A stretch of 33,088 nt of DNA, from the NCBI GenBank assembly GCA_017988335.1, contig JAGNRZ010000013.1, forward strand, positions 1 to 33,088, read 5' to 3'. Every line of letters begins with the position of its first letter. Position 1 is the first letter of the stretch. The translations under genes were made by a program, and so were the position numbers. The notes beneath the pieces are model-generated. The model was not told the DNA's origin. It saw only the letters and a list, made by a program, of their open reading frames with translations, and made no database searches. Shown here piece after piece: positions 1,804 to 26,608 of the stretch. This DNA comes from Ferruginibacter sp. Lineage in GTDB: Bacteria; Bacteroidota; Bacteroidia; Chitinophagales; Chitinophagaceae.

Positions 1804-2712
1804 CTATTTAGTCAGCTCTCTAAACACATCTTCTAAGCTACTGTTATTTTCACTTTGCAGGCTTTGTATGTTTAGGTTTTTATCTATAGCTAGTTGTAGT
1901 ATTTGTTTTTTTACAGCGTCAGTATCATGGGTTGATAGTTGATAGTTGGTAGTTGATAGTTTTTTTACACCAGTTACTCCTTGTAAACCTTTTAACCATT
2001 CAATACTTACTTCTTCTTTAAATTCAACAGTAATGCTTTGTGTACTTGCATTACCTTTTTGTAGGCTACTTAATTTATCATCGGCTACAATATTGCCTTT
2101 GTTAATAATAATTACTCTATCGCAAATGGCTTCTACCTCTTGCATAATATGTGAAGAGAATAGTACCGTTTTATTTTGCCCAAGGTGTTTTATTACTTCT
2201 CTTATTTCTACAATTTGGTTAGGGTCAAGGCCACTGGTAGGTTCATCTAAAATTAATACCTCTGGATTGTGTAGTAGTGCAGCGGCTAAACCCACCCGTT
2301 GTTTATAACCTTTGCTTAGTTGCCCAATTTTTTTATTGGCTTCTACCTTTAAGCCTACAGTATCTATTACTTCTTCAATTTTTGTTTTTATATTTTCTAC
2401 ATGGTGTATGCCGCCAACAAAACTCAAATACTCTCTTACATACATATCAAAATACAGTGGATTGGCTTCTGGCAAATAACCTATTTTACTTTTTGTTTCG
2501 TTGTTATTTGTGTTTACAGTTAACCCACATACTTGTGCATTACCACCATCAGCTCGTAGGTAGCCTGTAATCATTTTCATGGTAGTGCTTTTGCCAGCAC
2601 CATTGGGGCCTAAAAAACCTACAATTTCACCTTTGTTTACAGTAAATGATATATTGTTTACGGCTTTTTGACTGCCGTAATTTTTGCAGAGATTAGAAAC
2701 GGTGATTGACAT
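1804..2712 (-). CDS. gldA: GldA-type ABC transporter ATP-binding protein
   Basis: A 302-residue ABC ATPase with Walker A GPNGAGKST (about residues 35-43), signature LSKGYKQRVGLAAAL, Walker B VLILDEPTSGLDP and the switch His in SSHIMQEV. The segment IGYLPEANPLYFDMYVREYLSF is characteristic of GldA, the ATPase of the GldA-GldFG transporter linked to gliding motility in Bacteroidota; no gldF or gldG lies in this window. The C-terminal extension (about 225-302) is the usual GldA dimer/regulatory tail. An odd point is that residues 252-261 (TTNYQLSTHD region) are encoded by four tandem heptamers at 1931-1958, in a region that varies in the family. The upstream region holds a set of nested hairpins. 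Other bacitracin-type exporters look similar, so the symbol is probable rather than certain. Confidence 0.8.
   Translation of the reverse strand: MSITVSNLCKNYGSQKAVNNISFTVNKGEIVGFLGPNGAGKSTTMKMITGYLRADGGNAQVCGLTVNTNNNETKSKIGYLPEANPLYFDMYVREYLSFVGGIHHVENIKTKIEEVIDTVGLKVEANKKIGQLSKGYKQRVGLAAALLHNPEVLILDEPTSGLDPNQIVEIREVIKHLGQNKTVLFSSHIMQEVEAICDRVIIINKGNIVADDKLSSLQKGNASTQSITVEFKEEVSIEWLKGLQGVTGVKKLSTTNYQLSTHDTDAVKKQILQLAIDKNLNIQSLQSENNSSLEDVFRELTK
1931..1958 (+). repeat. Tandem heptamers inside gldA
   Basis: Four exact 7-nt units in a row: GTTGATA three times and GTTGGTA once, followed by a partial GTT. They lie within the gldA reading frame. Read on the minus (coding) strand this orientation has no stop in any of the three phases, whereas the plus strand contains TGA and TAG. 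Confidence 0.8.
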
Positions 2713-2748
2713 GTAATGTATTTGTATGCAAATTAATTTATTTTGGTT

Positions 2749-2817
2749 CTACTTTTTGCCTTGACGCAAAAAGTAGCAAAAAAGTCAAGGCAGGAAAGAA
2801 TACAGCCCTTTCCTGCC
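2749..2817. repeat. Three interlocking inverted repeats
   Basis: Three perfect stems overlap. Stem A pairs CTACTTTTTGC (2749-2759) with GCAAAAAGTAG (2766-2776). Stem B pairs GCCTTGAC (2758-2765) with GTCAAGGC (2784-2791). Stem C pairs GGCAGGAAAG (2789-2798) with CTTTCCTGCC (2808-2817). A and B cannot form together, and B and C share bases 2789-2791. Elements of this general sequence appear to me to be common dispersed repeats in Bacteroidota, but that is from memory. Confidence 0.75.
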
Positions 2818-2922
2818 GCATAGCTTTAATCAACTTTAGTACTACTGTAGCTTCAACATCATATCTCTACTCTTAAACTAAAAGCATCAAAACTAATAAC
2901 CAACAGTTTAATTGCTATTCAT

Positions 2923-2953
2923 AAAAAAGCTGAGTGTAATCCTCAGCTTTTTT
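2923..2953 (-). terminator. Rho-independent terminator of ricT (bidirectional form)
   Basis: AAAAAAGCTGAG (2923-2934) pairs perfectly with CTCAGCTTTTTT (2942-2953) around a 7-nt loop. This gives a six-base-pair GC-containing stem with A/T runs on both sides. It lies about 110 bp beyond the ricT stop and upstream of gldA, so it should end ricT transcription on the minus strand. Confidence 0.8.
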
Positions 2954-3023
2954 ACTTTTATATTCTTTCTGTGTTAATCTGAGTAATCTGTGGCTAATCA
3001 TCACATCAGCGTTATAAGCGAAA

Positions 3024-3052
3024 CCTGCCTGCCGGCAAAGGCGGGTCGGCGG
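3024..3052. repeat. GC-rich palindromic repeat
   Basis: CCTGCC and GGCGGG can pair across GGCAAA, and a second GGCGGG-like segment follows. The block is much richer in G and C than its surroundings, which marks it as a dispersed element rather than native spacer. Confidence 0.45.
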
Positions 3053-3062
3053 GAAAATAAAT

Positions 3063-4433
3063 CTAACTCGTTTTATTCCCCTCGTTACTAGGCTTCTGTT
3101 GCTGCCGTTGTTGATTGTTTCTATTTTGCGGTGGCCGCTGTTGCCTATTGCCACCTTGCCTATTATTATTTTGTTGATTTCCTCCTTGTCTGTTTTCGCC
3201 TTGCTTATTGCCTTGTTGTCTATTATTATTTTGTTGGTTACCACCCTGTCTATTACCACCCTGCTGTTGATTACCTTGTTGTTGCCTATTACCACCCTGC
3301 TGCCCTCCACGATCTTTATCCTTACGCTTGCGGCTAGTTTTTTCAAGGCTCTTTAAACTAATTTGCCCTACTAGGTCGGCATACTCTGGTTCTACTTCTT
3401 TAGGCTTGCTGGTAGATACTTCTACAGGCTCTAACTCCTCTGGTTTTATACCTTGGCGATTAAGCTCTTTTATTTTTTTAACCCTTTCAATAGTTAGCGG
3501 ATATTGTTTGTTACTATCTGGTAGGGTGTACCACATTAAGTTTCTAAAAATATCTTTTTTAACTAAAAAGGCACGGCTACGGGCTACTTCAATCATATCT
3601 GCATCATCCGGAAAAAACTGAAGAGCATCCATGTACGTATCTAACTCGTAGTTTAAGCAACACTTTAGCCTACCGCATTGCCCACTAAGTTTTGTTTGAT
3701 TAATACTTAAGTTTTGGTAACGGGCAGCATTGGTATTTACACTGCTAAAATCGGTAAGCCAACTGCTACAACAAAGCTCTCTACCACAACTACCTATACC
3801 ACCCACTTTACCAGCTTCTTGCCTTGCACCAATTTGACGCATTTCTACTTTTACTTTAAACTCACCAGCATATAATTTTATAAGCTCTCTAAAATCAACT
3901 CTATCGTCAGCAATATAAAAGTAGGTGGCTTTTCTGCCATCGGCTTGTATTTCTACCTCGGCAATTTTCATTTCTAACTTTAATTGCCTAGCTATGGCAC
4001 GGCTACGAATAAGCATGGCTGCTTCTCTGTCTTTACTTTCTTTTAGCTTAGCCATATCACCATCGTTGGCACGGCGAAGTATTTTTTTAATATCGGGGCT
4101 TTGTTCATCTACCTTACGCTTTTTCATTTGTATTCTTACAAGCTCACCAGTAAGGTTTACCATGCCTACATCAAAGCCACTTACGCCTTCTACGGCAATC
4201 ATATCGCCTTTTTCGTAATGATTGGAACTAGTATTTTTAAAAAAATCTTTACGGCTACCGTTATTAAAACTTACCTCTACAATTTTGCAACTGCTTTCCA
4301 TATCGGCAAAGGGTAAGTTTGCCAGCCAGTCATGCACATTCATACGATTGCAACCACCACTTGAGCAGTTACCATGACTTTGGCAACCACTTGGTGCTCC
4401 GTCTTTACTTGTACCGCAACTTCCGCAACCCAT
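3063..4433 (-). CDS. ricT: RicT-like PSP1 domain protein
   Basis: A 456-residue homologue of RicT/YaaT, a subunit of the Fe-S-containing Ric complex that in Bacillus affects RNase Y-dependent mRNA processing. The Cys-rich N-terminus (C3, C6, C17, C23, C28) precedes NRMNVHDWLANLPF, a hallmark of the Bacteroidota version. The PSP1 domain spans about 150-300 and contains CGRELCC (C216, C221, C222) and CGRLKCC (C253, C258, C259), the likely cluster-binding cysteines. Residues about 375-456 form a Q/N/G/R-rich disordered tail in which a 12-13-residue unit (NRQGGNQQNNNRQ) occurs twice; it may bind RNA (inference). It lies 236 bp downstream of holB, a neighbour relation also seen in Bacillus (holB-yaaT). 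The start ATG at 4433 is fixed by the conserved MGCGSCG opening. Confidence 0.88.
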   Translation of the reverse strand: MGCGSCGTSKDGAPSGCQSHGNCSSGGCNRMNVHDWLANLPFADMESSCKIVEVSFNNGSRKDFFKNTSSNHYEKGDMIAVEGVSGFDVGMVNLTGELVRIQMKKRKVDEQSPDIKKILRRANDGDMAKLKESKDREAAMLIRSRAIARQLKLEMKIAEVEIQADGRKATYFYIADDRVDFRELIKLYAGEFKVKVEMRQIGARQEAGKVGGIGSCGRELCCSSWLTDFSSVNTNAARYQNLSINQTKLSGQCGRLKCCLNYELDTYMDALQFFPDDADMIEVARSRAFLVKKDIFRNLMWYTLPDSNKQYPLTIERVKKIKELNRQGIKPEELEPVEVSTSKPKEVEPEYADLVGQISLKSLEKTSRKRKDKDRGGQQGGNRQQQGNQQQGGNRQGGNQQNNNRQQGNKQGENRQGGNQQNNNRQGGNRQQRPPQNRNNQQRQQQKPSNEGNKTS

Positions 4434-4446
4434 ATAATTAAATTAA

Positions 4447-4474
4447 TAATTAGTAATTAAAAATTAGTAATTGA
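4447..4474 (+). repeat. Tandem heptamers upstream of ricT
   Basis: Four 7-nt units: TAATTAG, TAATTAA, AAATTAG and TAATTGA, just 13 bp upstream of the ricT start. In the phase used for the other blocks they read GTAATTA-like. Because of low complexity this is the least certain heptamer block. Confidence 0.5.
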
Positions 4475-4520
4475 TGGTGGAGGAGATTTTTATGTACCCA
4501 GCAGATGCACTACTATTAAG

Positions 4521-4546
4521 CTTCATTGGCGTCGCACTCTTGTACA
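4521..4546. repeat. 26-bp repeat, copy 1
   Basis: A 26-bp sequence (CTTCATTGGCGTCGC...TTGTACA) recurs exactly at 31110-31135. A degenerate inverted relative (GAGTGACACAACGATG, about 4594-4609) lies 50 bp downstream, so this copy could be one arm of a roughly 95-bp inverted-repeat element in the holB-ricT spacer. Confidence 0.7.
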
Positions 4547-4669
4547 GTATTTATCTACTCGGCAGGTAAAGCTCAATAATGATATGCCGATGCAGTGAGT
4601 GACACAACGATGTTGAATATAGTTATAAAAGCTTATTACATAATATTAAACCTCATATTCTCAACCACC

Positions 4670-5878
4670 TCAATTAACCAAAATTAACGAATTGTTACTA
4701 ATAATGTGGTATAACTTAATAGAAAGGGCATGAAACAGCATTTTGGCATTGGCGTTACGCTCAATATAGTAGCTGGCTTTGTTTAGCTCATTTATAATGG
4801 CTTCTTGCTGGTGTAGCTGGGTTATTTTGTTTAGGCGGAGGGCAAAATCAACCTCGTTGGAGGGTGGTGGTTGGTCGTTGGTGGTGCTAATACGTACCGC
4901 CAACTCCAATAAATGGGTAAAATATTGCAAAAACTGCTTTTGCTTTTCTCTACCAATTTTGGCGGTTTCATCAATCCATTTTACTTGGGCTTGTGGGTTA
5001 AACTTTACAACCGCATTCAGCCACTCCCTAAGCATAGCTTGCCAATCGTCTTCGCTGTGTTGAAGCATTTGCAGGGCTTCCCTATAGTTACCCTCGGCAA
5101 CGGCAGCTATTTGCTGTGCTTTGGTAGGCGGTACGTTTGCCCTTAGTTCTAATGCACTTTCAATATCTAACTTACTAAGTGCAGGCACTTTTACCAGTTG
5201 TGTACGGCTAAGTATGGTGGGTAATATTTGGTCTTCGTTTTCGGCCACTAAAATAAATAAGGTGTTGGCAGGTGGTTCTTCTATTAACTTCAACAGCTTG
5301 TTACCTTCTTTACCTAAATACTCAGGCATCCACATAATGAGTATTTTGTATTCGCTTTCAAAGCTTTTTAGGCTAAGCTTTCGCAAAATATCGTTACACT
5401 CATGGGCTGTTATGTTTCCTTGCTTATTTTCGGCATTTATAAATTGTAACCAATCGTATACATTACCATATGGACTTTGCTTTACAAACTCTCTCCACTC
5501 GGTAATATAATCGGTAGCTATAGGTTTATCGCCGCTTTTACGTGGAATTACTGGGTAGCTAAAATGTATATCTGGATGTACAAGTTCTTGTGCTTTTTTG
5601 CAAGATGGGCAAGTGCCGCAGGAGTCGTTGTTAGATGTTAGATGTACGATGTTAGATGTTATTGCTGGTTCCAGCTCTCCAAAAAGTGAAGGCCCTGTTG
5701 GTTGGTTGTTGGTCGTTGGTCGGCAGGTAATATATTGTGCAAACGCCATGGCCAATTGCAATGCTCCGCTACCTTCTTTACCTAAAAACAATAATGCATG
5801 GCTTAAGCGGTTGTGCTGTACCATGTGTACCAATTGTTCTTTTACTGCTTTTTGACCAATGATGGAGTTGAAGGACAT
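4670..5878 (-). CDS. holB: DNA polymerase III subunit delta prime
   Basis: A 402-residue clamp-loader protein. It opens SFNSIIGQKAVKEQLVHMV and HALLFLGKEGSGALQLA, a P-loop in which the usual Lys is replaced, as expected of delta prime, which does not hydrolyse ATP. A zinc module is formed by C52 and by CGTCPSC (C87, C90, C93), followed by HPDIHFSYPV. Then come KILIMWMPEYLGKEGNKLLKLIEEPPANTLFILVAEN and the SRTQ motif of the AAA+ core. Two insertions are made of repeat DNA: residues about 53-84, between C52 and C87, and residues about 331-338 (STTNDQPPP). The first lengthens the zinc loop by roughly 25-30 residues compared with what I expect for the family. It precedes ricT, probably in one transcription unit. 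Confidence 0.88.
   Translation of the reverse strand: MSFNSIIGQKAVKEQLVHMVQHNRLSHALLFLGKEGSGALQLAMAFAQYITCRPTTNNQPTGPSLFGELEPAITSNIVHLTSNNDSCGTCPSCKKAQELVHPDIHFSYPVIPRKSGDKPIATDYITEWREFVKQSPYGNVYDWLQFINAENKQGNITAHECNDILRKLSLKSFESEYKILIMWMPEYLGKEGNKLLKLIEEPPANTLFILVAENEDQILPTILSRTQLVKVPALSKLDIESALELRANVPPTKAQQIAAVAEGNYREALQMLQHSEDDWQAMLREWLNAVVKFNPQAQVKWIDETAKIGREKQKQFLQYFTHLLELAVRISTTNDQPPPSNEVDFALRLNKITQLHQQEAIINELNKASYYIERNANAKMLFHALSIKLYHIISNNSLILVN
4866..4886 (+). repeat. Heptamers inside holB (3' block)
   Basis: Three 7-nt units, GGTGGTT, GGTCGTT and GGTGGTG, translated in the minus-strand holB frame as the STTNDQPPP segment. The unit GGTCGTT is shared with the block at 5697-5724 in the same gene. 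Confidence 0.7.
5629..5660 (+). repeat. Heptamers inside holB zinc loop (block 1)
   Basis: The 7-nt unit TGTTAGA is present three times, with one variant TGTACGA in third position and a partial unit at the end. Translated on the minus strand it gives the TSNIVHLTSNND stretch. The variant unit replaces what would be a TAA codon (5647-5645) by GTA. Confidence 0.8.
5697..5724 (+). repeat. Heptamers inside holB zinc loop (block 2)
   Basis: Four 7-nt units: GTTGGTT, GGTTGTT, GGTCGTT and GGTCGGC. The minus strand encodes the PTTNNQPT stretch. Between this and block 1 lies a GGCCCTTCAC...GGAGAGC segment that resembles the GC-rich palindromic repeats found elsewhere in the window. Confidence 0.75.
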
Positions 5879-5938
5879 GGTGCAAAGATAAGGGTGGAGG
5901 ATTTTTTAACCGCAAAGGCACAAAGAGGTTAAGTTTGG

Positions 5939-6352
5939 CTATGCTTCTACAGCTAATTTAATTTTAATTTTTGCTTTTTCTACATAGTCCATTAATCTGC
6001 CAAAGCTAACAGAGGCGTAGTTTTCAGCTTCGTAGCGTTGTAGTTGTTGTTCTTTTATGCCTAAAATTTCGGAGTATTGTTTTTGGGTAAAGCCTTTTGC
6101 TATTTTGTATTGAATTAAAATATTGGGTAATTGCATTACACTTACAGAACGCCTTAATGGAATGCCTTTAGTTTTTAAGGATTCGTATTGTTTAATTTCT
6201 TCTTTAAGATTATTCTTTAAAAGCACAAGTGAACCGATAGCTCCTTCTTGTATGCTATTTGGCTTAACAAGCGGTTTCTTGGCAGCAATTATTTGTTCAA
6301 CTTCTGCCAAACGTTTTTTTGAAATTTTATATTGTTTCTCGTTTTTAATCAT
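5939..6352 (-). CDS. XRE-family HTH protein, probable antitoxin
   Basis: A 137-residue protein. Residues about 76-131 form a helix-turn-helix of the Cro/C1 type: YKIAKGFTQKQYSEILGIKEQQLQRYEAENY, with the expected small residue and Gln/Arg-rich recognition helix. The first 70 residues are charged and helical (KKRLAEVEQIIAAKK and NNLKEEIKQYESLK), suited to coiled-coil or toxin contact. The start overlaps the stop of the upstream DUF6932-like gene by 4 bp (ATGA), so the two are translationally coupled. The pairing with a nucleotidyltransferase-fold protein suggests antitoxin and autorepressor. The order is toxin first, antitoxin second, as in HigBA-like modules. Confidence 0.7.
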   Translation of the reverse strand: MIKNEKQYKISKKRLAEVEQIIAAKKPLVKPNSIQEGAIGSLVLLKNNLKEEIKQYESLKTKGIPLRRSVSVMQLPNILIQYKIAKGFTQKQYSEILGIKEQQLQRYEAENYASVSFGRLMDYVEKAKIKIKLAVEA

Positions 6353-6783
6353 AACCTATCGGTTAAACTTATTTTTACAATTCCTTTGGGGTTATTATCC
6401 CTATCAAATTGAAAAAATTGTAAGATATAATCTTCAAAAGCATTGTAGGCATAAAATTCAGATTGGTATTTTTCTTTCTGAATTTTAGAACCGTTTTTAC
6501 TGTCATTAAATTCTGGATGCTCAGTAATAAATTTTTTCCAATTCATGTGAGTATTGTCATAACAAACATCCACATCATTAGGAAAAGGCTTGCTGGTAAC
6601 AAAGCTACCATCAATACAAACTTCTGTACATCCATACTTTTGTAAGAGCTGTAAACCTTTTTTTAAATCTATTAGTAACTGTTGCCGATGTTGGTTGAAG
6701 CCAAAGGTTTCGTTAAATTGTTGCCAAGTAGCATAGTGGATGCCAACTGGTAATAATCCTGATTTTTTTAAGCTTGGAATCAT
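6349..6783 (-). CDS. DUF6932-like nucleotidyltransferase-fold protein, probable toxin
   Basis: A 144-residue protein opening MIPSLKKSGLLPVGIHYATWQQFNETFG, the typical start of DUF6932 proteins. The core motif GSFVTSKPFPNDVDVCYD (G59, S60, D70, D72) is the GS...DxD signature of the minimal nucleotidyltransferase fold, with both metal-binding acidic residues present. Such proteins can modify tRNA or partner proteins by adding nucleotides; the target here is unknown. It is coupled by an ATGA overlap to an XRE protein. A promoter may lie 130-150 bp upstream, where only an imperfect TACCTTTA box (minus strand, about 6923-6930) was seen. The toxin role is inference from the domain pair. Confidence 0.65.
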   Translation of the reverse strand: MIPSLKKSGLLPVGIHYATWQQFNETFGFNQHRQQLLIDLKKGLQLLQKYGCTEVCIDGSFVTSKPFPNDVDVCYDNTHMNWKKFITEHPEFNDSKNGSKIQKEKYQSEFYAYNAFEDYILQFFQFDRDNNPKGIVKISLTDRL

Positions 6784-6931
6784 AGCTTTTTAAATTTGAA
6801 TTGAATGAACAGAACAAAATAATTGAGGTTTATTTAAACTCCAATTACAAAAGTTATTAGGCTGAAAAATATTGTTCCGTCTTTCAAAGCTCAAAAAGCT
6901 AAGGATATATTGATTTCACAATGTAAAGGTA

Positions 6932-6969
6932 ATAAAAAAAAGAACACAACGAAATAATTGTGTTCCTTT
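6932..6969 (-). terminator. Rho-independent terminator after the glutathione peroxidase gene
   Basis: GAACACAA (6942-6949) pairs with TTGTGTTC (6958-6965) around an 8-nt loop. On the minus strand the stem is followed by a run of eight T residues (complement of the A run at 6934-6941). It starts about 20 bp past the stop at 6990. Confidence 0.8.
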
Positions 6970-6989
6970 TCTAAAAAATATTTCATTTT

Positions 6990-7547
6990 TTACAACTTAC
7001 TTGTAATCTCCTCACTCATAGGTGTAACCTTACTAGGGAAATAGGCTATCATATTGCCGTTTTCATCTAATAAAAATTTACCAAAGTTCCATTTTATTTC
7101 TGCATCTAAAACACCATTTAACTCTTTACTGCAAAGCCATTTGTAAATGGGTGCCATATCGTCTCCTTTTACGCTAACTTTTGCTGCCATAGGAAAAGTA
7201 ACGCTATAGGTTTTGGTACAAAATTCTTTTATTTCAGTATTGGTGCCTGGTTCTTGTCCACCAAAGTTGTTTGCAGGGAAACCCACTATAACTAACTTGT
7301 CTTTATACTTTTGGTACAAAGCTTCTAAATCTTTGTATTGTGGGGTGTAGCCACACTTGCTTGCTGTATTTACAATTAGTATTTTTTTGCCTTTATACTT
7401 TGCAAAATTAATTTTACCTCCCTCTAAGCCAGCTACCTTAAAAGCATAAATACCTTTTTTCTTTTTATTAAGGTTGCTATTTTGTTTTGTAAAAGCAGAT
7501 AATAGCACTATAGCAAACAATGTTGCTAATAAAAATATTTTTTTCAT
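6990..7547 (-). CDS. Secreted glutathione/thioredoxin peroxidase (GPx family)
   Basis: A 185-residue protein that reduces hydroperoxides. A signal peptide (KKIFLLATLFAIVLLSAF, cleavage near 20-23) sends it to the periplasm. The family motifs are VNTASKCGYTPQY with the peroxidatic Cys (C65), GFPANNFGGQEPG with the catalytic Gln (Q98), and IKWNFGKFLLD with the catalytic Trp/Asn (W153, N154). C110 in KEFCTKTY fits the resolving Cys of thioredoxin-dependent members. The additional Cys that many members carry in FPCNQF is Ala here. It follows a lipoprotein gene after 30 bp on the same strand and is closed by a good terminator, so it is probably the last gene of the unit. Confidence 0.9.
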   Translation of the reverse strand: MKKIFLLATLFAIVLLSAFTKQNSNLNKKKKGIYAFKVAGLEGGKINFAKYKGKKILIVNTASKCGYTPQYKDLEALYQKYKDKLVIVGFPANNFGGQEPGTNTEIKEFCTKTYSVTFPMAAKVSVKGDDMAPIYKWLCSKELNGVLDAEIKWNFGKFLLDENGNMIAYFPSKVTPMSEEITSKL

Positions 7548-7577
7548 AACTTAACTTATTTATGTTTATAACAAAAT

Positions 7578-17717: not shown

Positions 17718-18407
17718 ATGAAGAAAATTATTTTGTTGTTACTTGTGTATTGTCCATTTTTTGTGTTGGCACAAGATGTAAATAGCTTGGTGCAAAAAGT
17801 AAAAGCAAAAATTGAGTTAGTTAATGATTATATAGCAGATGGAGAAATGAAAACAAATATTAGTTTTTTAAAAGTACCACAGGCTAATGTAAAAGTGTAT
17901 TACAAAAAAATAAATAAATTAAAAATTAAAAACGAAAAAGGCATTTCATTTGTACCAAAAGGAGCCGTAAATATGAATATGGCCAGTGTATTAAGTAATG
18001 GAAAATATACAGTTTTAGATGCTGGCGTTGAAAAGCTTACAGGTATTTCGGTAAGGGTTGTAAAACTTTTGCCAGAAGATGATAACGCTGATATTGTATT
18101 AAGCACTTTATATATTGATGAAACTAACTTAGTAATTAAAAAAGCTAAAACTACTACAAAAGATAATGGCACTTACGAATTAGAAATGAGCTATGGAAAG
18201 TACATTTCCTATGGATTGGCAGATAAAATAACATTTAGTTTCAATACCAAAGACTATAAATTACCTAAAGGTGTAACATTTGACTTTGATGATGGGGCCG
18301 ACAAAACAAAAGCTGCCGACAAAACAAAACCTAAAAAAGGAACAATACAACTTAGCTTTAAATCTTACATAATAAATAAAGGCGTAGCCGATAGTGTATT
18401 TCAATAA
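17718..18407 (+). CDS. LolA-like periplasmic protein
   Basis: A 229-residue exported protein with signal peptide MKKIILLLLVYCPFFVLAQ. The mature part resembles the outer membrane lipoprotein-sorting (LolA/LolB) fold. It has a first helix (VNSLVQKVKAKIELVNDYIADGEMKTNI) and then curved beta-strands (ANVKVYYKKINKLKIKNEKGISFVPKG, YTVLDAGVEKL, VLSTLYIDETNLVIKKAKTTT, YELEMSYGKYISYG). The Gly-Asp/Lys-rich segment near 190-208 contains a repeated DKTK. Linked to an ABC exporter, it may carry a lipid or lipoprotein across the periplasm, but this is inference; it is not the housekeeping lolA by obvious sequence. Confidence 0.7.
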   Translation: MKKIILLLLVYCPFFVLAQDVNSLVQKVKAKIELVNDYIADGEMKTNISFLKVPQANVKVYYKKINKLKIKNEKGISFVPKGAVNMNMASVLSNGKYTVLDAGVEKLTGISVRVVKLLPEDDNADIVLSTLYIDETNLVIKKAKTTTKDNGTYELEMSYGKYISYGLADKITFSFNTKDYKLPKGVTFDFDDGADKTKAADKTKPKKGTIQLSFKSYIINKGVADSVFQ

Positions 18408-18799: not shown

Positions 18800-19939
18800 T
18801 TACTTCAACACCTCTCTACTAATCACCAGCTTTTGTATTTCGCTAGTACCTTCACCAATGGTGCAAAGTTTACTATCTCTATAAAATTTTTCTACTGGAA
18901 AATCTTTGGTGTAGCCATAGCCGCCAAAAATTTGTACTGCATCTGTACTTACCTCTACCGATACTTCACTGGCATAATATTTTGCCATAGCAGCTTCTTT
19001 AGTCATAGGCAAGCCTTTCATTTTTAAATCGCAGGCTTGGTTAATTAATAACTCGGCACATTCAATTTTTGTTGCCATATCTGCCAATTTAAAACTTATA
19101 CCTTGAAAGTTTGCTATGGGTTGATCAAACTGATAACGTTCTTTTGCATATTGCTTACTAGCTTCGTAAGCACCTTTTGCAATTCCAAGGCTTAATGCTG
19201 CAATAGAAATTCTTCCTCCATCTAATACCTTCATACTTTGTTTAAAACCGCTACCAATTTCACCCATTCTATTAGCATCGGGTATTCTGCAATTATCAAA
19301 AATCATTTCGGCGGTTTCGCTAGCTCTCATACCTAGTTTATTTTCTTTTTTACCTCCACTAAAACCGGGTGTTCCTCTTTCTACAATAAAGGCTGTTGCA
19401 TTATCTTTTGTACGTGGCTCACCTGTACGGCAAATTACCACAGCAATATCGCCTGTTTTACCATGGGTAATCCAATTTTTTGTACCATTAATAATCCAAT
19501 TATTGCCATCTTTTACAGCCGTTGTTTTCATATTGCCTGCATCGCTACCTGTATTAGCTTCTGTTAAACCCCAAGCACCAATATGCTCTGCAGTAGCTAG
19601 CTTTGGCAAGTATTTTTTCTTTTGATCTTCGTTACCAAAAGTAAGTATATGCCCTGTACATAAGCTATTGTGTGCTGCTAACGATAACCCAATACTACCA
19701 CATACTTTTGCTACTTCTTGTATGGCCACACTGTATTCAAAATAACTTAAGCCGCTGCCTCCATATTCTTCTGGCACTAAAATACCCATTAAACCTAGCT
19801 TACCTAATTCTTTAAAAATATGTAGTGGAAATTCTTGGCTTTCATCCCACTCCATCAAATGTGGTTTAATATATTGAAGGGCAAAATCTCTAGCTGTTTG
19901 AGCTACTTGTGTAGTCAACTCGTTTTGTTGAAAATTCAT
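18800..19939 (-). CDS. Acyl-CoA dehydrogenase
   Basis: A flavoenzyme of about 379 residues that introduces the alpha-beta double bond in acyl-CoA, passing electrons to ETF. Seen are the helical N-domain (LMGILVPEEYGGSGLSYFEYSVAIQE), the FAD/substrate motif GAWGLTEANTGSDAG, the beta-domain WIINGTKNWITHG, and the C-terminal RYQFDQPIANFQGISFKLADMA and QIFGGYGYTKDFPVEKFYRDSK. The catalytic Glu is in IGEGTSEIQKLVI. The length and the GEGTSEIQ ending suit short- or branched-chain members. I prefer the start MNFQQNEL (19939) over an ATG three codons upstream (19948). A TATCTTTG box lies 25 bp upstream. Confidence 0.92.
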   Translation of the reverse strand: MNFQQNELTTQVAQTARDFALQYIKPHLMEWDESQEFPLHIFKELGKLGLMGILVPEEYGGSGLSYFEYSVAIQEVAKVCGSIGLSLAAHNSLCTGHILTFGNEDQKKKYLPKLATAEHIGAWGLTEANTGSDAGNMKTTAVKDGNNWIINGTKNWITHGKTGDIAVVICRTGEPRTKDNATAFIVERGTPGFSGGKKENKLGMRASETAEMIFDNCRIPDANRMGEIGSGFKQSMKVLDGGRISIAALSLGIAKGAYEASKQYAKERYQFDQPIANFQGISFKLADMATKIECAELLINQACDLKMKGLPMTKEAAMAKYYASEVSVEVSTDAVQIFGGYGYTKDFPVEKFYRDSKLCTIGEGTSEIQKLVISREVLK

Positions 19940-19964
19940 AAAATGCAATCGCTTTTTTTCGTTG

Positions 19965-19972: not shown

Positions 19973-19981
19973 CTTGATTTT

Positions 19982-20017
19982 GAATTTTGAATGGTGAATT
20001 TTTGAATGGCGAATTTA
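19982..20017 (+). repeat. Heptamer block upstream of acyl-CoA dehydrogenase
   Basis: Units GAATTTT, GAATGGT, GAATTTTT (8 nt), GAATGGC and GAATTTA follow each other, so the period is 7 with one 8-nt unit. In rotated phase the main unit is GTGAATG. Confidence 0.7.
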
Positions 20018-21224: not shown

Positions 21225-21247
21225 TATATTTGGTCAGTCAAATGACT
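21225..21247 (+). promoter_or_regulatory. -7 element and inverted repeat before the AAA ATPase
   Basis: TATATTTG (21225-21232) matches TANNTTTG. Right after it, AGTCA-AA-TGACT (21236-21247) is a perfect inverted repeat at the expected transcription start, which could be an operator. No clear -33 site was found. Confidence 0.35.
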
Positions 21248-21259
21248 ATTTTAATATAA

Positions 21260-22384
21260 ATGTTTGAAAGATTACTTGAAAAGGAAATAATAAAAACACT
21301 TGCTACACAAAAAGTAACGATTTTGTTAGGGGCAAGAAGGGTAGGCAAAACATCTTTATTAAACAAAATTTTTGAAAGCTACACTAAGCCAAAACTTTGG
21401 TTAAATGCTGAAGATAGCGACACAAAAAAATTACTAGAAAATAGAAGTATTACTAGTTATAAATTATTATTACAATTTACAACTTTATTAATTATTGATG
21501 AAGCACAGCATATCCCTAACATTGGATTGGTTGTAAAATTAATGATTGATGAGATAAAACCGCTACATATAATTATTACAGGTTCTTCAGCATTCGATTT
21601 AGCACAAAGCGGTTATCCATTAGTAGGCAGAAGTATTACACAACATTTATTTGCCATTGCACAACAAGAAATATCATTAAAAGAAAATAGTTTACAAACA
21701 ACACAAAATTTAGAAAGCCGTTTAATTTATGGTAGTTACCCAGAGTTGTTGATGTATGAACCTATACAACAAAAGCAACGTTATTTAAAAGAATTGGTAA
21801 ACACATATTTGTTGAAAGATATTTTAGAGTTTGAAAATATTAAAAACGCTGCTATATTAAAAAAACTTTTGGAGCTTATTGCTTATCAGGTAGGCAATGA
21901 GGTATCGGAAACTGAACTTGGAACCACACTTGGAATAAGCAAAAACACAGTAGCAAGGTATTTAGACTTACTAGAAAAAGTATTTGTTATTTTTCCATTA
22001 ACTGGATATAGTAAAAACTTACGAAAAGAGGTTAGTAAAAGTAAAAAATGGTATTTTTTTGACAATGGCATACGCAATGCTATCATCAACAATTTCAGTA
22101 CTATTCCAATACGGCAAGATGTTGGCCAACTTTGGGAAAATTACTTAATAACCGAACGAAAAAAAGCAAATGCCTACAACAACAATTTTGCAAATTCATT
22201 TTTTTGGCGTACATACGATATGCAAGAAATTGACTATATAGAAGAACTAAACGATAATCTTACTGCATTTGAAATTAAATGGAATAATAAAAAAGTAAAA
22301 ATGCCTATCGCTTTTGCGAATGCTTATCCTAAATGCTCTTTCACTGTACTTAATAAAGAAAATTATTTAAATTGGATTATTTAA
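21260..22384 (+). CDS. AAA-family ATPase with DUF4143 domain
   Basis: A 374-residue protein of the AAA_14/DUF4143 architecture. Walker A is LGARRVGKTSLL (about 24-35), Walker B LLIIDEAQHI, and the sensor IIITGSSAFDLAQ. A winged-helix segment (ETELGTTLGISKNTVARYLDLLEKVFVIFPL, about 217-248) leads to the DUF4143 C-domain (KKWYFFDNGIRNAIINNF, WENYLITERKK, FFWRTYDMQEIDYI) with a nuclease-like strand order DYIEELNDNLTAFEIKW, reminiscent of PD-(D/E)XK sites. The cellular role of this family is not known; members are strongly accessory and vary between strains. The 3' end overlaps the convergent MBL gene by 4 bp. Confidence 0.82.
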   Translation: MFERLLEKEIIKTLATQKVTILLGARRVGKTSLLNKIFESYTKPKLWLNAEDSDTKKLLENRSITSYKLLLQFTTLLIIDEAQHIPNIGLVVKLMIDEIKPLHIIITGSSAFDLAQSGYPLVGRSITQHLFAIAQQEISLKENSLQTTQNLESRLIYGSYPELLMYEPIQQKQRYLKELVNTYLLKDILEFENIKNAAILKKLLELIAYQVGNEVSETELGTTLGISKNTVARYLDLLEKVFVIFPLTGYSKNLRKEVSKSKKWYFFDNGIRNAIINNFSTIPIRQDVGQLWENYLITERKKANAYNNNFANSFFWRTYDMQEIDYIEELNDNLTAFEIKWNNKKVKMPIAFANAYPKCSFTVLNKENYLNWII

Positions 22385-23157
22385 ATTTCCAACTCCAACC
22401 CATCCCATGCCAAATTAATCCCTTGCGGTAATTCTTCACTTACTTCAGTATGCAAACCCATTTGATGGCTTAAGTGAGTAAAATATGTTTGCGGTATTTG
22501 TAATTGTTGTGCAAGTGCAATGGCTTCTTCTAAATTAAAATGCGATATATGTTTTTCTTTACGCAACGCATTTAGCACTAAAATTTTTGAACCCACAATT
22601 TTTTGCAATTCGTCCTCATCAATTTTATTAGCATCGGTTATGTAGGTAAAATCACCCATTCTAAAACCAAGCACAGGCATTTTTATATGCCAAACTAAAA
22701 TAGGTTGTATAAAAATATCACCTATATAAAATGGTTGGTCGTCTATTGTGTTAATATTTAAATTAGGTAAGCCCGGATATTTTTTATCAGAAAAAGCATA
22801 AGCAAATTCTCTTTTTATTGCCTCCTCTGTTAAAGAGTTTGCATATAGCTCCATTGGCTTTTGGGTAAAAAAATTAAATGCTCTTACATCATCAAGCCCA
22901 GCAATATGGTCTTTATGTGGATGGGTAAATAAAACTGCATCTAACTGTTGCACATTTGCCCTTAGCATTTGATAACGAAAATCGGGGGTGGTATCAATTA
23001 CAAATTTTGTGGTATTGCTTTCCACTAAAATACTACTTCGTAAGCGGTTATCTTTTTTATTTGTTGATTTGCAAACTACGCAATTACAACCAATCATAGG
23101 CACACCACTGCTTGTGCCTGTACCAAGGAATGTTATTTTTAAATTAGGAAATTGCAT
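22381..23157 (-). CDS. PhnP-like MBL-fold metallo-hydrolase
   Basis: A 258-residue hydrolase of the metallo-beta-lactamase fold. It has ITFLGTGTSSGVPMIGCNCVVC, with the Cys residues that bind a structural metal in PhnP-like phosphodiesterases, and FTHPHKDHIAGLDDVRAF, the HxHxDH active-site motif that binds the dinuclear centre. The distal metal ligands lie around FTYITDANKID (Asp) and YFTHLSHQMG (His). The natural substrate in Bacteroidota is not established; a cyclic phosphodiester is likely. It is followed by a small conserved protein gene upstream at 23199-23462. Confidence 0.88.
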   Translation of the reverse strand: MQFPNLKITFLGTGTSSGVPMIGCNCVVCKSTNKKDNRLRSSILVESNTTKFVIDTTPDFRYQMLRANVQQLDAVLFTHPHKDHIAGLDDVRAFNFFTQKPMELYANSLTEEAIKREFAYAFSDKKYPGLPNLNINTIDDQPFYIGDIFIQPILVWHIKMPVLGFRMGDFTYITDANKIDEDELQKIVGSKILVLNALRKEKHISHFNLEEAIALAQQLQIPQTYFTHLSHQMGLHTEVSEELPQGINLAWDGLELEI

Positions 23158-23198
23158 GTGTAATGCAAATTAAGGAATTCACCGCAGAGAAAGAATTG

Positions 23199-23462
23199 TT
23201 AAGCCTTTACTGTCATAACCTCATCGTACATTTTTTGGCTCTCTAGAGTTAATGCGTCAAAATTAATATCTAATTGAGGCATTAAATCTATTAATGTATT
23301 TATTCTGCCTTCGGTTTGAAAAAACTTATTTAGTACAATTACTTTTTTGGCTTGCAATATGCAGTAGCCGCTTTGAAAATTTCCTCTTTCGTAACGAATT
23401 ACATAACCAGCTTCTTCTGCAATTTTTTCTATTTTGTCTAATATGCTTTGTGTGTATTTCAT
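23199..23462 (-). CDS. Small conserved hypothetical protein
   Basis: An 87-residue soluble protein: KIEKIAEEAGYVIRYERGNFQSGYCILQAKKVIVLNKFFQTEGRINTLIDLMPQL. The centre YERGNFQSGYCIL and VLNKF look like a short beta meander, followed by a helix. I recognise it as a type widespread in Bacteroidota but know no function. It lies 41 bp upstream of the MBL gene on the same strand and is probably cotranscribed with it. Confidence 0.72.
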   Translation of the reverse strand: MKYTQSILDKIEKIAEEAGYVIRYERGNFQSGYCILQAKKVIVLNKFFQTEGRINTLIDLMPQLDINFDALTLESQKMYDEVMTVKA

Positions 23463-23470
23463 ACCCCAAA

Positions 23471-23482
23471 CCCCTAAAGGGG
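23471..23482. repeat. CCCCTAAAGGGG palindrome
   Basis: CCCCT and AGGGG pair around AA, followed on the plus strand by CTTTTT. It belongs to the same class as 30201-30212 and 31037-31050. Confidence 0.7.
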
Positions 23483-23577
23483 CTTTTTCAACTTTTTAAT
23501 TTAACTGCAACTTCCTACAAACAAAACGCTTTAAAAAATAAAATTGTCAACAACCGTTAATAAGTTAATTTGATTAC

Positions 23578-23605
23578 TCACTAATCACTACTCACCATTC
23601 ACTAT
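23578..23605 (+). repeat. Heptamer block at the porX stop codon
   Basis: Units TCACTAA, TCACTAC, TCACCAT and TCACTAT follow each other without gaps. On the minus strand they read ATAGTGA, ATGGTGA and so on, the same unit as at 19982-20017. The last unit supplies the TAG stop of porX (23604-23602). Confidence 0.75.
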
Positions 23606-25158
23606 TTATTGCTCATTCTTATCACTGGCACAATCATTTCTTCCAAACTTATACCGCCATGCTGGAAAGTGTTTCGGTAATAATTTACAAAATGATTATA
23701 ATTGTTGGGGTAGCATAAATACAAATCGCCTTTAGCAAAAATAAAACTGCTATTTACATTTGGCGATGGTAGCCCTGCCTCTCTTGGGTCTCTAAAAGCT
23801 AGCACCTCTTTGGCTTCATAGTTTAAATTTCTGCCATGCTTGTAGCGTAAGTTAGCGGTGGTTTGTTTGTCGCCAATAACTTTTGCAGGGTTTTTTACTC
23901 TTACACTACCATGGTCGGTAGCCACAATTAAATTAATTTTTTTATCGGCAATTTTTTTAAGTGCTTGGTGCAAAGGAGAATGCTCAAACCAACTTTGCGT
24001 TATACTTCTATAGCTTACCTCATCGCCAGCTAATTCTTTCAACACTTCCATTTCGGTTCTAGCATGGCTTAGCATATCCACAAAATTGTAAACAATAATA
24101 TTAATGTCGTTTTGCATCATATTGTGCATATTGTCTACCAGCTTTTGTCCATCATTATTATTGGTAATTTTTGTGTATGAATATTTTAAATCGCCTTTAC
24201 CCAAGCGTTTTAATTGTGCCTTAAAAAATTCTTCTTCATATAAATTTTTACCCCCTTCTTCATCATCATTCTTCCATTGCACCGGAAATTGCTTTTCAAT
24301 ATCAATGGGCATCATGCCTGCAAATATTGCATTACGGGCATATTGTGTAGCAGTAGGTAAAATGGCATAAAAAGTTTCTTCCTCGTGTATTCTAAAACTT
24401 TCTGCAAAAATGGGTTGTATGGTTTTCCATTGGTCAAAACGCAAATTATCAATCAGTACAAAAAAAAGTGGTGTGCCTTTTTCTAAGTGAGGAAATACTT
24501 TATACTTCATCAAAGTATTACTCATTATAGGGGCATCTGTATTTTTAGGGTTTACCCAGTTTGCATAATTTTTACTAATAAATTTAAAAAAATCTGTATT
24601 GGCTTCTTGCTTTTGCGAATTAAAAACCTCTTGCATTTCGGGGCTATCGCTTTTTTTCATTTCCAACTCCCAATACACTAGTTTTTTATAAATTTCCATC
24701 CACTCATTGTAATTAGGATTGCTATTTAATGCCCCAAACAAACTGGTAAATTGCTGCTGATAGCTTGATGTTGTTTTTTCGGCCACCAAACGTTTATTAT
24801 CAATTATCTTTTTTAAACTTAGTAATACCTGATTAGGATTTACCGGCTTAATCAAATAATCACTTATTTGGCTGCCAATGGCTTCGTCCATTATATTTTC
24901 CGCCTCGTTTTTAGTAATCATTACAATAGGCAAGGAGCTGTTAATTTCTTTTATTTGCTGCAAAGTTTGCAAGCCTGTAATGCCAGGCATACTTTCGTCA
25001 AGCAACACCACATCTACTGCGTTTTCTTTTACAAACTCTACGGCATCGTATCCGTTAGATTTTGTTGTAACTTCATAGCCTTTGTTTTCTAAAAACATTA
25101 TTTGAGAGTTTAGGCTATCTATCTCATCATCTACCCAAAGTATTTTGGCTGTACTCAT
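23602..25158 (-). CDS. porX: Response regulator PorX (receiver plus PglZ)
   Basis: A protein of about 518 residues. The N-terminal CheY-like receiver (1-120) has D10 and D11, the phospho-acceptor D54 (VVLLDESMPG), T82 and K104 (IKPVNPNQ). A helical linker leads to a PglZ/alkaline-phosphatase-like domain (about 200-518) with FFVLIDNLRFDQW, ATQYARNAIFAGMMP, IYNFVDMLSHAR and ATDHGSVRV, the likely zinc-binding residues. This two-domain architecture is that of PorX, which controls type IX secretion genes in Porphyromonas with PorY and SigP. I place the start at MSTAKILWVDDE; the frame extends 20 codons upstream, but that part is repeat DNA. No T9SS structural gene lies in the window. Divergent from the HD gene. 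Confidence 0.9.
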   Translation of the reverse strand: MSTAKILWVDDEIDSLNSQIMFLENKGYEVTTKSNGYDAVEFVKENAVDVVLLDESMPGITGLQTLQQIKEINSSLPIVMITKNEAENIMDEAIGSQISDYLIKPVNPNQVLLSLKKIIDNKRLVAEKTTSSYQQQFTSLFGALNSNPNYNEWMEIYKKLVYWELEMKKSDSPEMQEVFNSQKQEANTDFFKFISKNYANWVNPKNTDAPIMSNTLMKYKVFPHLEKGTPLFFVLIDNLRFDQWKTIQPIFAESFRIHEEETFYAILPTATQYARNAIFAGMMPIDIEKQFPVQWKNDDEEGGKNLYEEEFFKAQLKRLGKGDLKYSYTKITNNNDGQKLVDNMHNMMQNDINIIVYNFVDMLSHARTEMEVLKELAGDEVSYRSITQSWFEHSPLHQALKKIADKKINLIVATDHGSVRVKNPAKVIGDKQTTANLRYKHGRNLNYEAKEVLAFRDPREAGLPSPNVNSSFIFAKGDLYLCYPNNYNHFVNYYRNTFQHGGISLEEMIVPVIRMSNK

Positions 25159-25168
25159 TTGGCTCATT

Positions 25169-25244
25169 GTTAATGGTTCATTGTTCATAATAAAAGATGT
25201 ATTACCATGTATAACCATGAACTACCATCTATGTACTATGAACT
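25169..25244. repeat. Inverted heptamer arms in the porX leader
   Basis: The left arm has GTTAATG, GTTCATT and GTTCATA (25169-25189). The right arm has ATGAACT, ACCATCT, ATGTACT and ATGAACT (25217-25244). GTTCATTGTTCATA (25176-25189) and TATGTACTATGAAC (25230-25243) pair at 12 of 14 positions. The block lies directly upstream of the porX start, inside its probable leader. Confidence 0.75.
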
Positions 25245-25251
25245 TACTCTA

Positions 25252-25259
25252 CAAATTTA
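25252..25259 (-). promoter_or_regulatory. Possible -7 element of porX
   Basis: TAAATTTG on the minus strand fits TANNTTTG. If used, the heptamer hairpin would be transcribed as the 5' leader of porX. No -33 partner. Confidence 0.3.
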
Positions 25260-25290
25260 ATTTTTTATACCATACATAATCAGCTTTATT

Positions 25291-25298
25291 TAGCTTTG
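25291..25298 (+). promoter_or_regulatory. Possible -7 element of the HD-lpxD unit
   Basis: TAGCTTTG matches TANNTTTG, 43 bp before the HD gene ATG. The upstream TTTG is replaced by a T run at 25261-25266. Confidence 0.4.
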
Positions 25299-25341
25299 TG
25301 TATCTTTTAACAAAACGGTAAATTTCAAACTAAGTACGGTT

Positions 25342-26523
25342 ATGCCTTTTAGAAAAATAATTAACGACCCTGTTTACGGCTTTATTACAATAGATGATGA
25401 ATTAATTAATCAGATAATTGCTCATCCATTTTATCAACGCTTACGCCGCATTAATCAAATGGCAATGGCTAATGTAGTGTACCCAGGAGCAGTGCATAGC
25501 CGTTTACATCACTCTTTAGGGGCTTATCATTTAATGGGTTTAGCACTAACCGAATTGAGTAGAAAGGGTGTTGAAATTACTTTTGAAGAACAGCAAGCCG
25601 CTAAAATTGCTATTCTGTTGCATGATGTAGGTCATGGTCCATTTAGTCATGCTTTAGAACACACTTTAATTGAGGGCATGCATCATGAAGAAATTTCTTT
25701 ACTCATTATTAAGGAACTTAACCAACAATTTAATGGTAAACTGCAATTGGCTTTAGATATTTTTACCAACAACTATCATAAAAAATTTTTACATCAATTA
25801 ATAAGTGGTCAGCTTGATGTTGATAGAATGGACTACTTAACTAGAGATAGTTTTTTTACAGGAGTAATAGAAGGCAGTATTGGCTATGATAGAATTATTA
25901 AAATGATGGTGGTGCATAATGGCGAATTAATGGTAGAGGAAAAAGGTATTTACTCTATTGAAAAATTTTTGGTAAGCCGTAGGTTAATGTATTGGCAAGT
26001 GTATTTACACAAAACAGTTTTGTGTGCTGAGCAAATGCTAAAACAAATTATTAAAAGAGCAAAACACATTAAAGCTAAAAGCAGTACCGCCTTACATAAA
26101 TTTATTAACGAACCTATTAGTAATGTATCGTTACAAGAGTTTTGTAGTATAGATGATTACGATGTATTGGCTGCCATTAAAGAATGGTGTAACCATAGCG
26201 ATAAAGTGCTTTCTTTTTTATGCAATGGTGTTTTAAATAGGCAATTATTAAAAGTAAAATATCAACCTACTCTTTTTGAAAACAATACCATACAAGAACA
26301 AATTTCAAAAGTTTCACAAAATTTTAATTTAACTTTAGATGATGCCCAATGGCTAGTGTTTAGCGGCGAAAGCAGTAACAGTATGTACAATTTTAAAGAC
26401 GAACATATATATATATTGTTTAAAAATGGAGATGTAAAAGATATAAGTGAGGTGGATAATGCTTTAATAAACGAAAACTTAACAGGTAAGGTTACAAAAT
26501 ATTATATTTGCTATCCTAGATGA
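25342..26523 (+). CDS. HD-domain phosphohydrolase
   Basis: A 393-residue protein of the HD superfamily. FRKIINDPVYGFITIDDEL and HPFYQRLRRINQMAMANVVYPGAVHSRLHHSLGAYHL are the hallmarks of the dNTPase/SAMHD1-like subgroup. The metal site comes from HSRLHHSLG, LLHDVGHGPFSHALEH (HD motif) and QLDVDRMDYLTRDSFFTG (distal Asp). The C-terminal half carries QVYLHKTVLCAEQMLK and a helical region with no known domain. Its substrate is not known; dNTP or other nucleotides are likely. In Bacteroidota this gene commonly sits immediately before lpxD, as here (95 bp, occupied by a heptamer hairpin), suggesting a conserved link with lipid A synthesis of unknown nature. Confidence 0.88.
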   Translation: MPFRKIINDPVYGFITIDDELINQIIAHPFYQRLRRINQMAMANVVYPGAVHSRLHHSLGAYHLMGLALTELSRKGVEITFEEQQAAKIAILLHDVGHGPFSHALEHTLIEGMHHEEISLLIIKELNQQFNGKLQLALDIFTNNYHKKFLHQLISGQLDVDRMDYLTRDSFFTGVIEGSIGYDRIIKMMVVHNGELMVEEKGIYSIEKFLVSRRLMYWQVYLHKTVLCAEQMLKQIIKRAKHIKAKSSTALHKFINEPISNVSLQEFCSIDDYDVLAAIKEWCNHSDKVLSFLCNGVLNRQLLKVKYQPTLFENNTIQEQISKVSQNFNLTLDDAQWLVFSGESSNSMYNFKDEHIYILFKNGDVKDISEVDNALINENLTGKVTKYYICYPR

Positions 26524-26529
26524 TAGGCA

Positions 26530-26608
26530 ATAGTTCATGGTTCATAGCTACTAAATACTTTAATATTACAGCTACCATGAACTATGATCTATGAACTATA
26601 AGCAATGA
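26530..26608. repeat. Inverted heptamer arms between the HD gene and lpxD
   Basis: The left arm has AGTTCAT and GGTTCAT (26532-26545). The right arm has ACCATGA, ACTATGA, TCTATGA, ACTATAA and GCAATGA (26574-26608). ATAGTTCATGGT (26530-26541) and ACCATGAACTAT (26574-26585) are exact reverse complements. It begins 6 bp after the HD stop. Confidence 0.8.

Follow-up and report, generated by a model that had tools for sequence, protein, structure and literature searches.

Degenerate heptamer arrays of Chitinophagaceae: inverted pairs, changing units at the lpxD leader and a possible origin by slippage and fold-back copying

Introduction

We analyzed a stretch of 33,088 nt from a Ferruginibacter sp. 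draft genome (contig JAGNRZ010000013.1 of assembly GCA_017988335.1; hereafter the window), which carries imperfect tandem arrays of 7-nt units within and between its genes. Arrays lie in the genes for an ABC-transporter ATPase and DNA polymerase III delta-prime, beside those for a PSP1-domain protein, an acyl-CoA dehydrogenase and a response-regulator/PglZ protein, and in the leader of lpxD, which follows an HD-domain gene (Table 1). The original prediction grouped at least nine such blocks as a superfamily with a loose consensus, GTNNNTN, and suggested a common, perhaps enzyme-driven, origin. It also likened them to the heptameric repeats of cyanobacteria. Those of Nostocalean cyanobacteria go by the name of short tandemly repeated repetitive (STRR) sequences, and their defining traits are several unit families per genome and concentration in spacers.

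Materials and methods

Sequences. The draft genome has 261 contigs totalling 3.08 Mb, and the window is contig 178. The home sample consisted of the window plus 40 contig stretches, or 424,832 of 3,082,516 bases (14% of the genome). Relatives were sampled as 400 kb of genome G002, 258 kb of G068 and 80 loci around lpxD (1.37 Mb). The genus set comprised 93 genomes, of which G068 was nearest by the searched locus (80% identity over 4.7 kb). Among the matches listed, the closest LpxD homologues came from Sphingobacteriales (77% identity), Bacteroidota (76%) and Ferruginibacter (76%), followed by many Chitinophagaceae.

Tests. A strict array has at least 17/21 matches at lag 7, above every shorter lag. 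An inverted partner requires 15/18 matches within 200 nt. The window was scanned for tandem repeats with Tandem Repeats Finder (TRF), and neighbouring genes were named with Pfam. Gene starts follow a longest open reading frame (ORF) rule, which makes distances to starts approximate. Most shuffle controls are first-order resamplings, often with 1 or 10 replicates; codon-matched controls are synonymous-codon shuffles, 10 per ORF set. The lpxD leader was taken from 108 loci (103 distinct); 51 of the 108 are shorter than 60 nt, mostly too short for an array. Leader units, and their labels on the HD+LpxD tree, were assigned by eye.

Excess of period 7

The window has six strict lag-7 runs, whereas 200 first-order shuffles average 0.04 and never exceed 1; the other lags from 4 to 15 give 0–2. 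The home sample has 25 at lag 7, compared to 0, 2, 6, 3 and 2 at lags 5, 6, 8, 9 and 10 and 7 at lag 15, and one shuffle of it leaves none at lag 7. The excess of period 7 over periods 6 and 8 was as predicted, and it survives shuffling. Strict lag-7 runs also occur in G002 (12), G068 (17) and the relatives' 80 lpxD loci (47, with 19 at lag 8 and 6 at lag 6), and lag 7 is the highest of lags 5–15 in all four samples. Two further genomes, G033 and G003, have 3 and 1 per 200 kb, and strict array density ranges from 0.5 to 6.6 per 100 kb across genome samples. In 150 kb of Escherichia coli there was no strict lag-7 run, and the spacer autocorrelation did not peak at 7. The peak lies at 7 (then 14) in the home sample and at 7 in the relatives' loci; lags 14 and 7 are level in G002, and G068 peaks at 8.

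Both coding and non-coding DNA contribute. Lag-7 runs in ORFs exceed codon-matched shuffles in the home sample (13 versus 1.2), G068 (6 versus 0.5) and the relatives' loci (8 versus 0.5), so the excess survives codon matching in these three; in G002 it is slight. The home arrays divide into 12 intergenic and 13 in ORFs, and the relatives' into 36 and 11. Since spacers make up about one-tenth of the DNA, arrays are concentrated there per base.

A product of chance or base composition might be suspected, because some blocks (4447, 4866 and 19982) are weak or low-complexity and four of the nine fail the strict test (4447, 5697, 19982 and 25169). Shuffles, codon-matched shuffles, neighbouring lags and E. 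coli all lack the excess, which makes this explanation extremely improbable. Chance is excluded for the array set as a whole; single weak blocks may be chance. As for the predicted blocks, period 7 is clear at 1931, 5629, 5701 and 23578, but 25169 and 26530 are not single runs, and the strict test is passed by five of the nine (1931, 4866, 5629, 23578 and the right arm of 26530).

Table 1. Heptamer arrays of the window and their surroundings
Feature	Position	Strand	Context	Evidence
GTTGATA array, 4.4 units	1931..1961		In ABC-transporter ATPase ORF 1804-2712 (-), near gene 3' end	TRF 91% match, Pfam
A+T-rich 7/14-nt array	4441..4474 (TRF 4441-4472)		~8 nt upstream of start of PSP1-domain ORF 3063-4433 (-)	TRF
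Weak GGTCGTT-type array	4854..4886 (TRF 4854-4882)		3' part of DNA polymerase III delta-prime ORF 4670-5878 (-)	TRF score 30 (floor), lag run, Pfam
TGTTAGA array	5625..5661		Variable linker of delta-prime	TRF (5629-5661, 84% match), alignment
GTTGGTC array	5697..5724		Second, length-variable delta-prime linker	TRF (5701-5722, 93% match)
AAAAATT array, strict period-7 run; absent from the original prediction	17906..17943 (strict run 17914-17943)		In ORF 17718-18407 (+)	TRF, lag run
Mixed 7/8-nt array, best as 15-mer	19977..20017 (TRF 19977-20016)		Upstream of acyl-CoA dehydrogenase ORF 18800-19948 (-)	TRF, Pfam
TCACTAA array	23575..23606		3' end of response-regulator/PglZ ORF 23602-25218 (-)	TRF 23578-23604, 80% match
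Left arm of inverted heptamer pair, GTTNAT units	25169..25189	-	~10 nt upstream of inferred PglZ-gene start	Sequence reading
Right arm, partner of 25169..25189, ATNAAC units, imperfect	25213..25244	+	HD-domain ORF starts 25342 (+)	Sequence reading
Left arm of lpxD-leader inverted pair, GTTCAT units	26530..26550	-	6 nt past HD-gene stop	Sequence reading
Right arm, partner of 26530..26550, ATGAACT units	26577..26612	+	6 nt ahead of lpxD ATG at 26619	TRF

Inverted pairs

The two largest blocks, 25169–25244 and 26530–26612, are each made of opposed arrays, GTTNAT on one side of a loop and ATNAAC on the other; TRF calls one arm period 7. This inverted-pair layout was missed by the original prediction. 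The array at 23575..23606 has no inverted partner within 200 nt. Because homologues of the PglZ protein mostly align from about residue 20, its gene probably starts near 25158, which places the first pair in a divergent spacer; a similar pair occupies the corresponding spacer of G068 (L206 6752/6809).

Inverted partners accompany nearly half of the intergenic arrays (30/64). The corresponding count is 3 for the complement control, 1 for the reversed and 6 for the direct one; random spacer segments have 9/192 and arrays within ORFs 7/37. Independently of array calls, 1224 spacers contain 192 inverted repeats, compared to 34 in shuffled spacers. The arms of these 192 reach 11/14 matches at lag 7 in 38 cases, compared to 14 with shuffled arms, and at lag 8 in 20, compared to 5, with 1–3 each at lags 4–6 and 10–12; lag 9 shows no excess (7 versus 6 in shuffled arms). 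A-rich sequence at the 3' arm accompanies 10 of 12 period-8 pairs and 12 of 28 of period 7, the latter being no trend.

By spacer type, the 38 period-7 inverted repeats are co-directional in 28 cases, divergent in nine and convergent in one, compared to 44 convergent among the 154 other inverted repeats. The loop between their core arms has a median of 37.5 nt, versus 11 in inverted repeats lacking period 7 or 8. We considered ordinary intrinsic terminators and rejected them, because the loops are long and the pairs are rare between convergent genes.

Arrays in general follow the same preference, with 45 in 123 kb of co-directional spacer (0.36/kb), eight in 53 kb of divergent (0.15/kb) and six in 33 kb of convergent spacer (0.18/kb). 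This distribution is what would be expected if the heptamers were functional sites, contacting a nucleic-acid-binding protein or the ribosome in leaders and between co-transcribed genes, with the preferred unit drifting along with the factor. We regard this as a possible but clearly less probable explanation. In its favour, 45 of 59 arrays are co-directional, and in 24 of these 45 the array end is no more than 20 nt from the downstream start; TAACTGA arrays in other bacteria also lie just ahead of start codons, according to excerpts of PMC4679880. However, 18 of the 45 are equally near to the upstream stop (within 20 nt), and proximity to starts is therefore nothing special. Arrays also occur inside genes.

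Some direct arrays are much longer and nearly regular, with lengths that correspond to about 13–30 units: L185 2731-2836, L197 6907-6997, L214 5020-5144 and L166 12939-13149. The first three have no inverted partner within 200 nt, and that of L166 sits in predicted ORFs. Long regular direct arrays are possibly a second class beside the short degenerate pairs.

The lpxD leader

Period 7 is present in 20 of 54 distinct lpxD leaders (63–160 nt, stop codon included), and four more have period 8 or 9 alone. Among other co-directional spacers of like length, 49/414 have period 7. With duplicates counted, 23 of the 57 leaders of at least 60 nt score at lag 7, four at lag 8, one each at lags 9 and 10 and none at lags 5 and 6; shuffles give about one each.

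Units read by eye at this site include ATGAACY, TTAGCYA, AACTAAA, AAAGTCC, GAGCCTC and ACCAGAA, besides an 8-mer (L114) and a 9-mer (L066). These last two also form inverted arrays, with predicted folds of -29.3 and -34.2 kcal/mol, respectively; that of the home leader is -22.5 kcal/mol. On the HD+LpxD tree (43 rows), ATGAACY-like units are spread over separate clades, and units differ between sister tips such as L058 and L067. Compared to G068, the home leader has a similar loop of equal length; its left arm is 7 nt shorter, and its right side exceeds that of G068 by 7 nt, with 2 nt more at the end. Judging from these leader sequences, the site persists and its unit turns over. Folds are also somewhat more stable in leaders with period 7 than in the others (median z -1.53 versus -0.62), in line with the arrays being functional sites.

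Near the 3' end of the HD gene (window ~26500-26510), many relatives keep a TATTAYATTTG-like string. We take it to resemble the Bacteroidota promoter -7 box, and the lpxD promoter may therefore lie inside the upstream HD gene.

Arrays in coding sequence

Contrary to the original prediction, the coding blocks do not look like inserts of common origin. The ABC-ATPase array lies in a stretch with no gap relative to 25 of 29 orthologues (1–3 residues relative to the other four), and G068 has a related degenerate array at that place. The delta-prime array at 5629 is equal in length to its counterpart in G068, and most other relatives are shorter there. The one at 5697 occupies a length-variable linker where G068 carries a GTTGGCA-type array. 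The units of lpxD leaders likewise differ between species. From these alignments, the coding blocks appear to be tolerant, variable protein segments that were expanded or overwritten locally. Outside coding sequence, the array at 4441 has a counterpart in G068 (L205:6068-6097), a similar array with like flanks by eye.

Unit sequences

The GTNNNTN pattern fits 15 of 25 home arrays (6.2 expected), but it is not enriched in G068 (6/17 versus 4.4), G002 (1/12 versus 1.5) or the relatives' loci (7/47 versus 10.0). The claim that most units fit it holds for the home genome, and we rejected it as a consensus of the whole family. The accompanying observation, that units differ between blocks and degenerate within them, was correct: the 25 home arrays have 17 distinct units. 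Three consecutive G or C are present in four of 67 distinct units (AACAGGG, AAGTGGG, AATGGGC and ACTGCCC) and absent from the others.

Units within a genome nevertheless resemble one another more than letter-shuffled units do. Pairs with at most one mismatch number 30/298 in the home genome (14.4 in shuffled units), 9/135 in G068 (2.6) and 10/64 in G002 (2.3). This sharing supports functional sites, and the 17 units among 25 arrays of one genome count against them. The shared fraction is 0.101 within the home genome, 37/425 (0.087) between home and G068, 0.083 between home and G002 and 38/1175 between home and the relatives' loci.

With up to two mismatches allowed, ATGAACY has about 20 sites in the home genome, spread over 19 contigs. 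The corresponding pattern, GAACYATGAACYATGAAC, with one mismatch allowed, was found in 20 of the 93 genus genomes (up to 53 hits; 52 in G065), and 73 lacked it. In all 12 two-armed ATGAACY clusters among those listed, GTTNAT is on the left and ATNAAC on the right, one of them with an extra outlying unit; ATGAACY is the one unit family for which polarity was tested. The loops have no evident shared sequence by eye. Fixed polarity together with dissimilar loops is, from the sequences, the best hint of more than independent local slippage.

The reversed control pattern (CAAGTAY units) was itself abundant, with 87 hits in G083, 45 in G062, 20 in G073, 15 in G056 and 14 in G060, and is apparently another heptamer family. 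A scan of viral contigs with GAACYATGAACYATGAAC returned 46 stretches, in which chance and host DNA were not separated; it was not used.

That ATGAACY letters are kept across loci with different-looking loops, and in one polarity in 12 of 12 listed pairs, again favours functional sites; the lack of the pattern in 73 of 93 genus genomes counts against them. A stronger version is that the hairpins form a maintained system and are not debris of mutation. A trans-acting factor would read the arrays in fixed polarity, both in leaders and between co-transcribed genes, and each lineage would change the 'word' with its factor and keep the hairpin. We find this unlikely. If it were true, orthologous leaders would keep a hairpin and rewrite its letters.

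The roughly 20 home sites in one polarity could also be mobile palindromes, either repetitive extragenic palindromes mobilized by their associated tyrosine transposases (REP/RAYT), IS200/605-like elements or miniature inverted-repeat transposable elements, that a transposase dispersed and that have since decayed. Matches to Y1_Tnp do occur in 82 of the 93 genus genomes. However, G068 has more arrays per base than the home sample yet no Y1_Tnp match, and G065, with its 52 pattern hits, has one weak match. Around two of the four home Y1_Tnp matches (~1.5 kb each examined), there was no array. Loops without evident common sequence by eye, and different units at one orthologous site, also misfit a single element family. 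We therefore rejected REP/RAYT, as Y1_Tnp is not beside the arrays in these two of four cases and does not track them across G068 and G065, and we consider mobile palindromes in general quite improbable. For the same reasons, the enzyme-driven origin suggested originally was not borne out by Y1_Tnp; enzymes other than Y1_Tnp were not sought.

Another enzymatic route would be templated addition, with an RNA-templated or template-independent polymerase adding heptamers and each genome having its own lexicon. The abundant unit does differ by genome, as the reversed control in G083 and G062 illustrates, though sites and long arrays are not separated in those counts. Many units coexist in one genome, and sharing within the home genome is close to sharing between genomes (0.101 versus 0.087 and 0.083), so genomes do not each have a private lexicon. 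We give this explanation very little credence.

Discussion

We interpret the arrays as degenerate heptamer arrays of Chitinophagaceae that work like cyanobacterial STRRs and were probably made by slippage plus fold-back template switching, with a rough probability of 0.53. During replication, the nascent strand would slip in steps of 7–8 nt, adding or losing whole units. Fold-back template switching would then copy a unit array to the far side of a loop and so create inverted arms. Selection would purge the products from conserved coding sequence and tolerate hairpins between cistrons; the one in the lpxD leader is perhaps used by the cell. Repeated cycles would swap the unit at a site that stays.

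Length differences of whole units separate sister species in both cases compared, the home and G068 lpxD leaders and an array of G033 and G038. In the latter, 128 and 107 nt lie between shared flanks by eye, a difference of 21 nt or three units. Template switching has been published as a source of RNA hairpins (excerpts of PMC8794818), and 7 nt as a reflection of polymerase contact is an idea cited in excerpts of PMC4679880 and PMC4692102.

Direct support for slippage and fold-back copying is limited, and several results weigh against it. Non-coding 7-nt indels between close pairs are few (one in G003/G060 and three in G033/G038), and one of the four is a tandem duplication. Mirroring of unit order between arms was not detected, as arms match no better than permuted units (0/38 at p<0.05, a test of low power with 3–4 units per arm), which weighs against recent arm-to-arm copying. 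A purely local process leaves the recurrence of ATGAACY (~20 sites, 19 contigs) unaccounted for, as it does the single polarity of the 12 listed pairs. Stability of predicted folds is slightly above that of other spacers (median z -0.80 versus -0.40, p 0.04), strongly stable folds (z below -2) are no commoner (9/49 versus 30/150), and the ORF excess over codon-matched shuffles is slight in G002 (5 versus 3.6). Selection for an RNA fold was considered and rejected as weak.

The arrays resemble STRRs in that tandem degenerate 7-mers exceed other unit lengths and that each genome has several unit families concentrated in spacers (17 units among 25 arrays at home). They differ in belonging to another phylum and lacking a common consensus, and we therefore say that they work like STRRs, not that they are STRRs, and claim no membership by descent. 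Two further differences are the many unit families seen at a single protein-gene leader when species are compared, and the presence of arrays in coding segments too.

Statements on published repeats here and below refer to excerpts of the papers. The P6b stem of the Nostoc trnL intron is built of 7-mers at a fixed site, where the unit class (TDNGATT or NNTGAGT) was replaced repeatedly and the structure stayed similar (PMC4476775). This is the likeness we see at the lpxD leader, with a unit swapped at a fixed site and a structure that stays. Intergenic sequences of Nostoc 7120 that read as heptamer repeats, ccactgactactgac and ttgtcagttgtcagttgtca, are not termed STRR in their source (PMC2408588). 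The first matches the unit of the L039 array, which supports the predicted likeness to cyanobacterial heptamers.

Xanthomonas GGGAATC repeats are intergenic heptamers with 70 (Xcc) and 75 (Xac) close convergent site pairs; the sites are mostly common to both species and vary in length and sequence (PMC4692102). Our arrays share with them close inversion (30/64) and, in the ATGAACY family (12/12 listed) and at 26530-26612, a single polarity. Xanthomonas has one G-rich, quadruplex-capable unit, whereas the units here are many, mostly A+T-rich or mixed, and change at one site. TAACTGA repeats occur in spacers near start codons in Beggiatoaceae, Cyanobacteria and five Bacteroidetes, and other heptamer direct repeats in Gramella and Aequorivita spacers (PMC4679880). 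Unlike our arrays, TAACTGA is one exact unit in direct repeats (the Maribeggiatoa draft has 169 sets, besides one indirect repeat), and related heptamers rarely or never form direct repeats there (PMC4679880).

On our best reading, the closest kinds would be the cyanobacterial heptamer repeats, above all the P6b stem, and the Xanthomonas GGGAATC pairs, with the present arrays as a Chitinophagaceae counterpart. Long simple sequence repeats with a heptamer peak were reportedly described by Mrazek et al. in 2007 (cited in PMC4679880 and PMC4692102), with slippage over a 7-nt polymerase contact as the proposed cause. Those repeats are 'long' by a statistical threshold, whereas ours mostly have about 3–5 imperfect units, with some long regular arrays. 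Among the matches listed in the open-access literature, we found no description of such repeats in Chitinophagaceae, which is no proof of absence.

The lpxD leader provides 54 distinct long natural versions of one site that vary in unit sequence, unit length (7, 8 or 9) and presence of an array. With this set, the dominance of heptamers in longer bacterial repeats, and replication error versus function as its cause, become testable in one family. The ORF arrays suggest a period-7 mutational footprint in coding genes, even though selection there should act against steps that are not multiples of three.

Other repeats

No Rfam family matched the window at the gathering threshold. A dispersed repeat with core GCGTCGCACTCTTGTAC is present at 4526-4547 and 31115-31136 of the window. 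Its 22-base pattern has 41 matches in the home genome with at most three mismatches (20 forward and 21 reverse), compared to none for the reversed control, and similarity between copies runs some tens of bases further by eye. The exact core was not found in the G068, G003, G033 or E. coli samples; it is present in L078, L079, L099 and L112 and once in the G002 sample.

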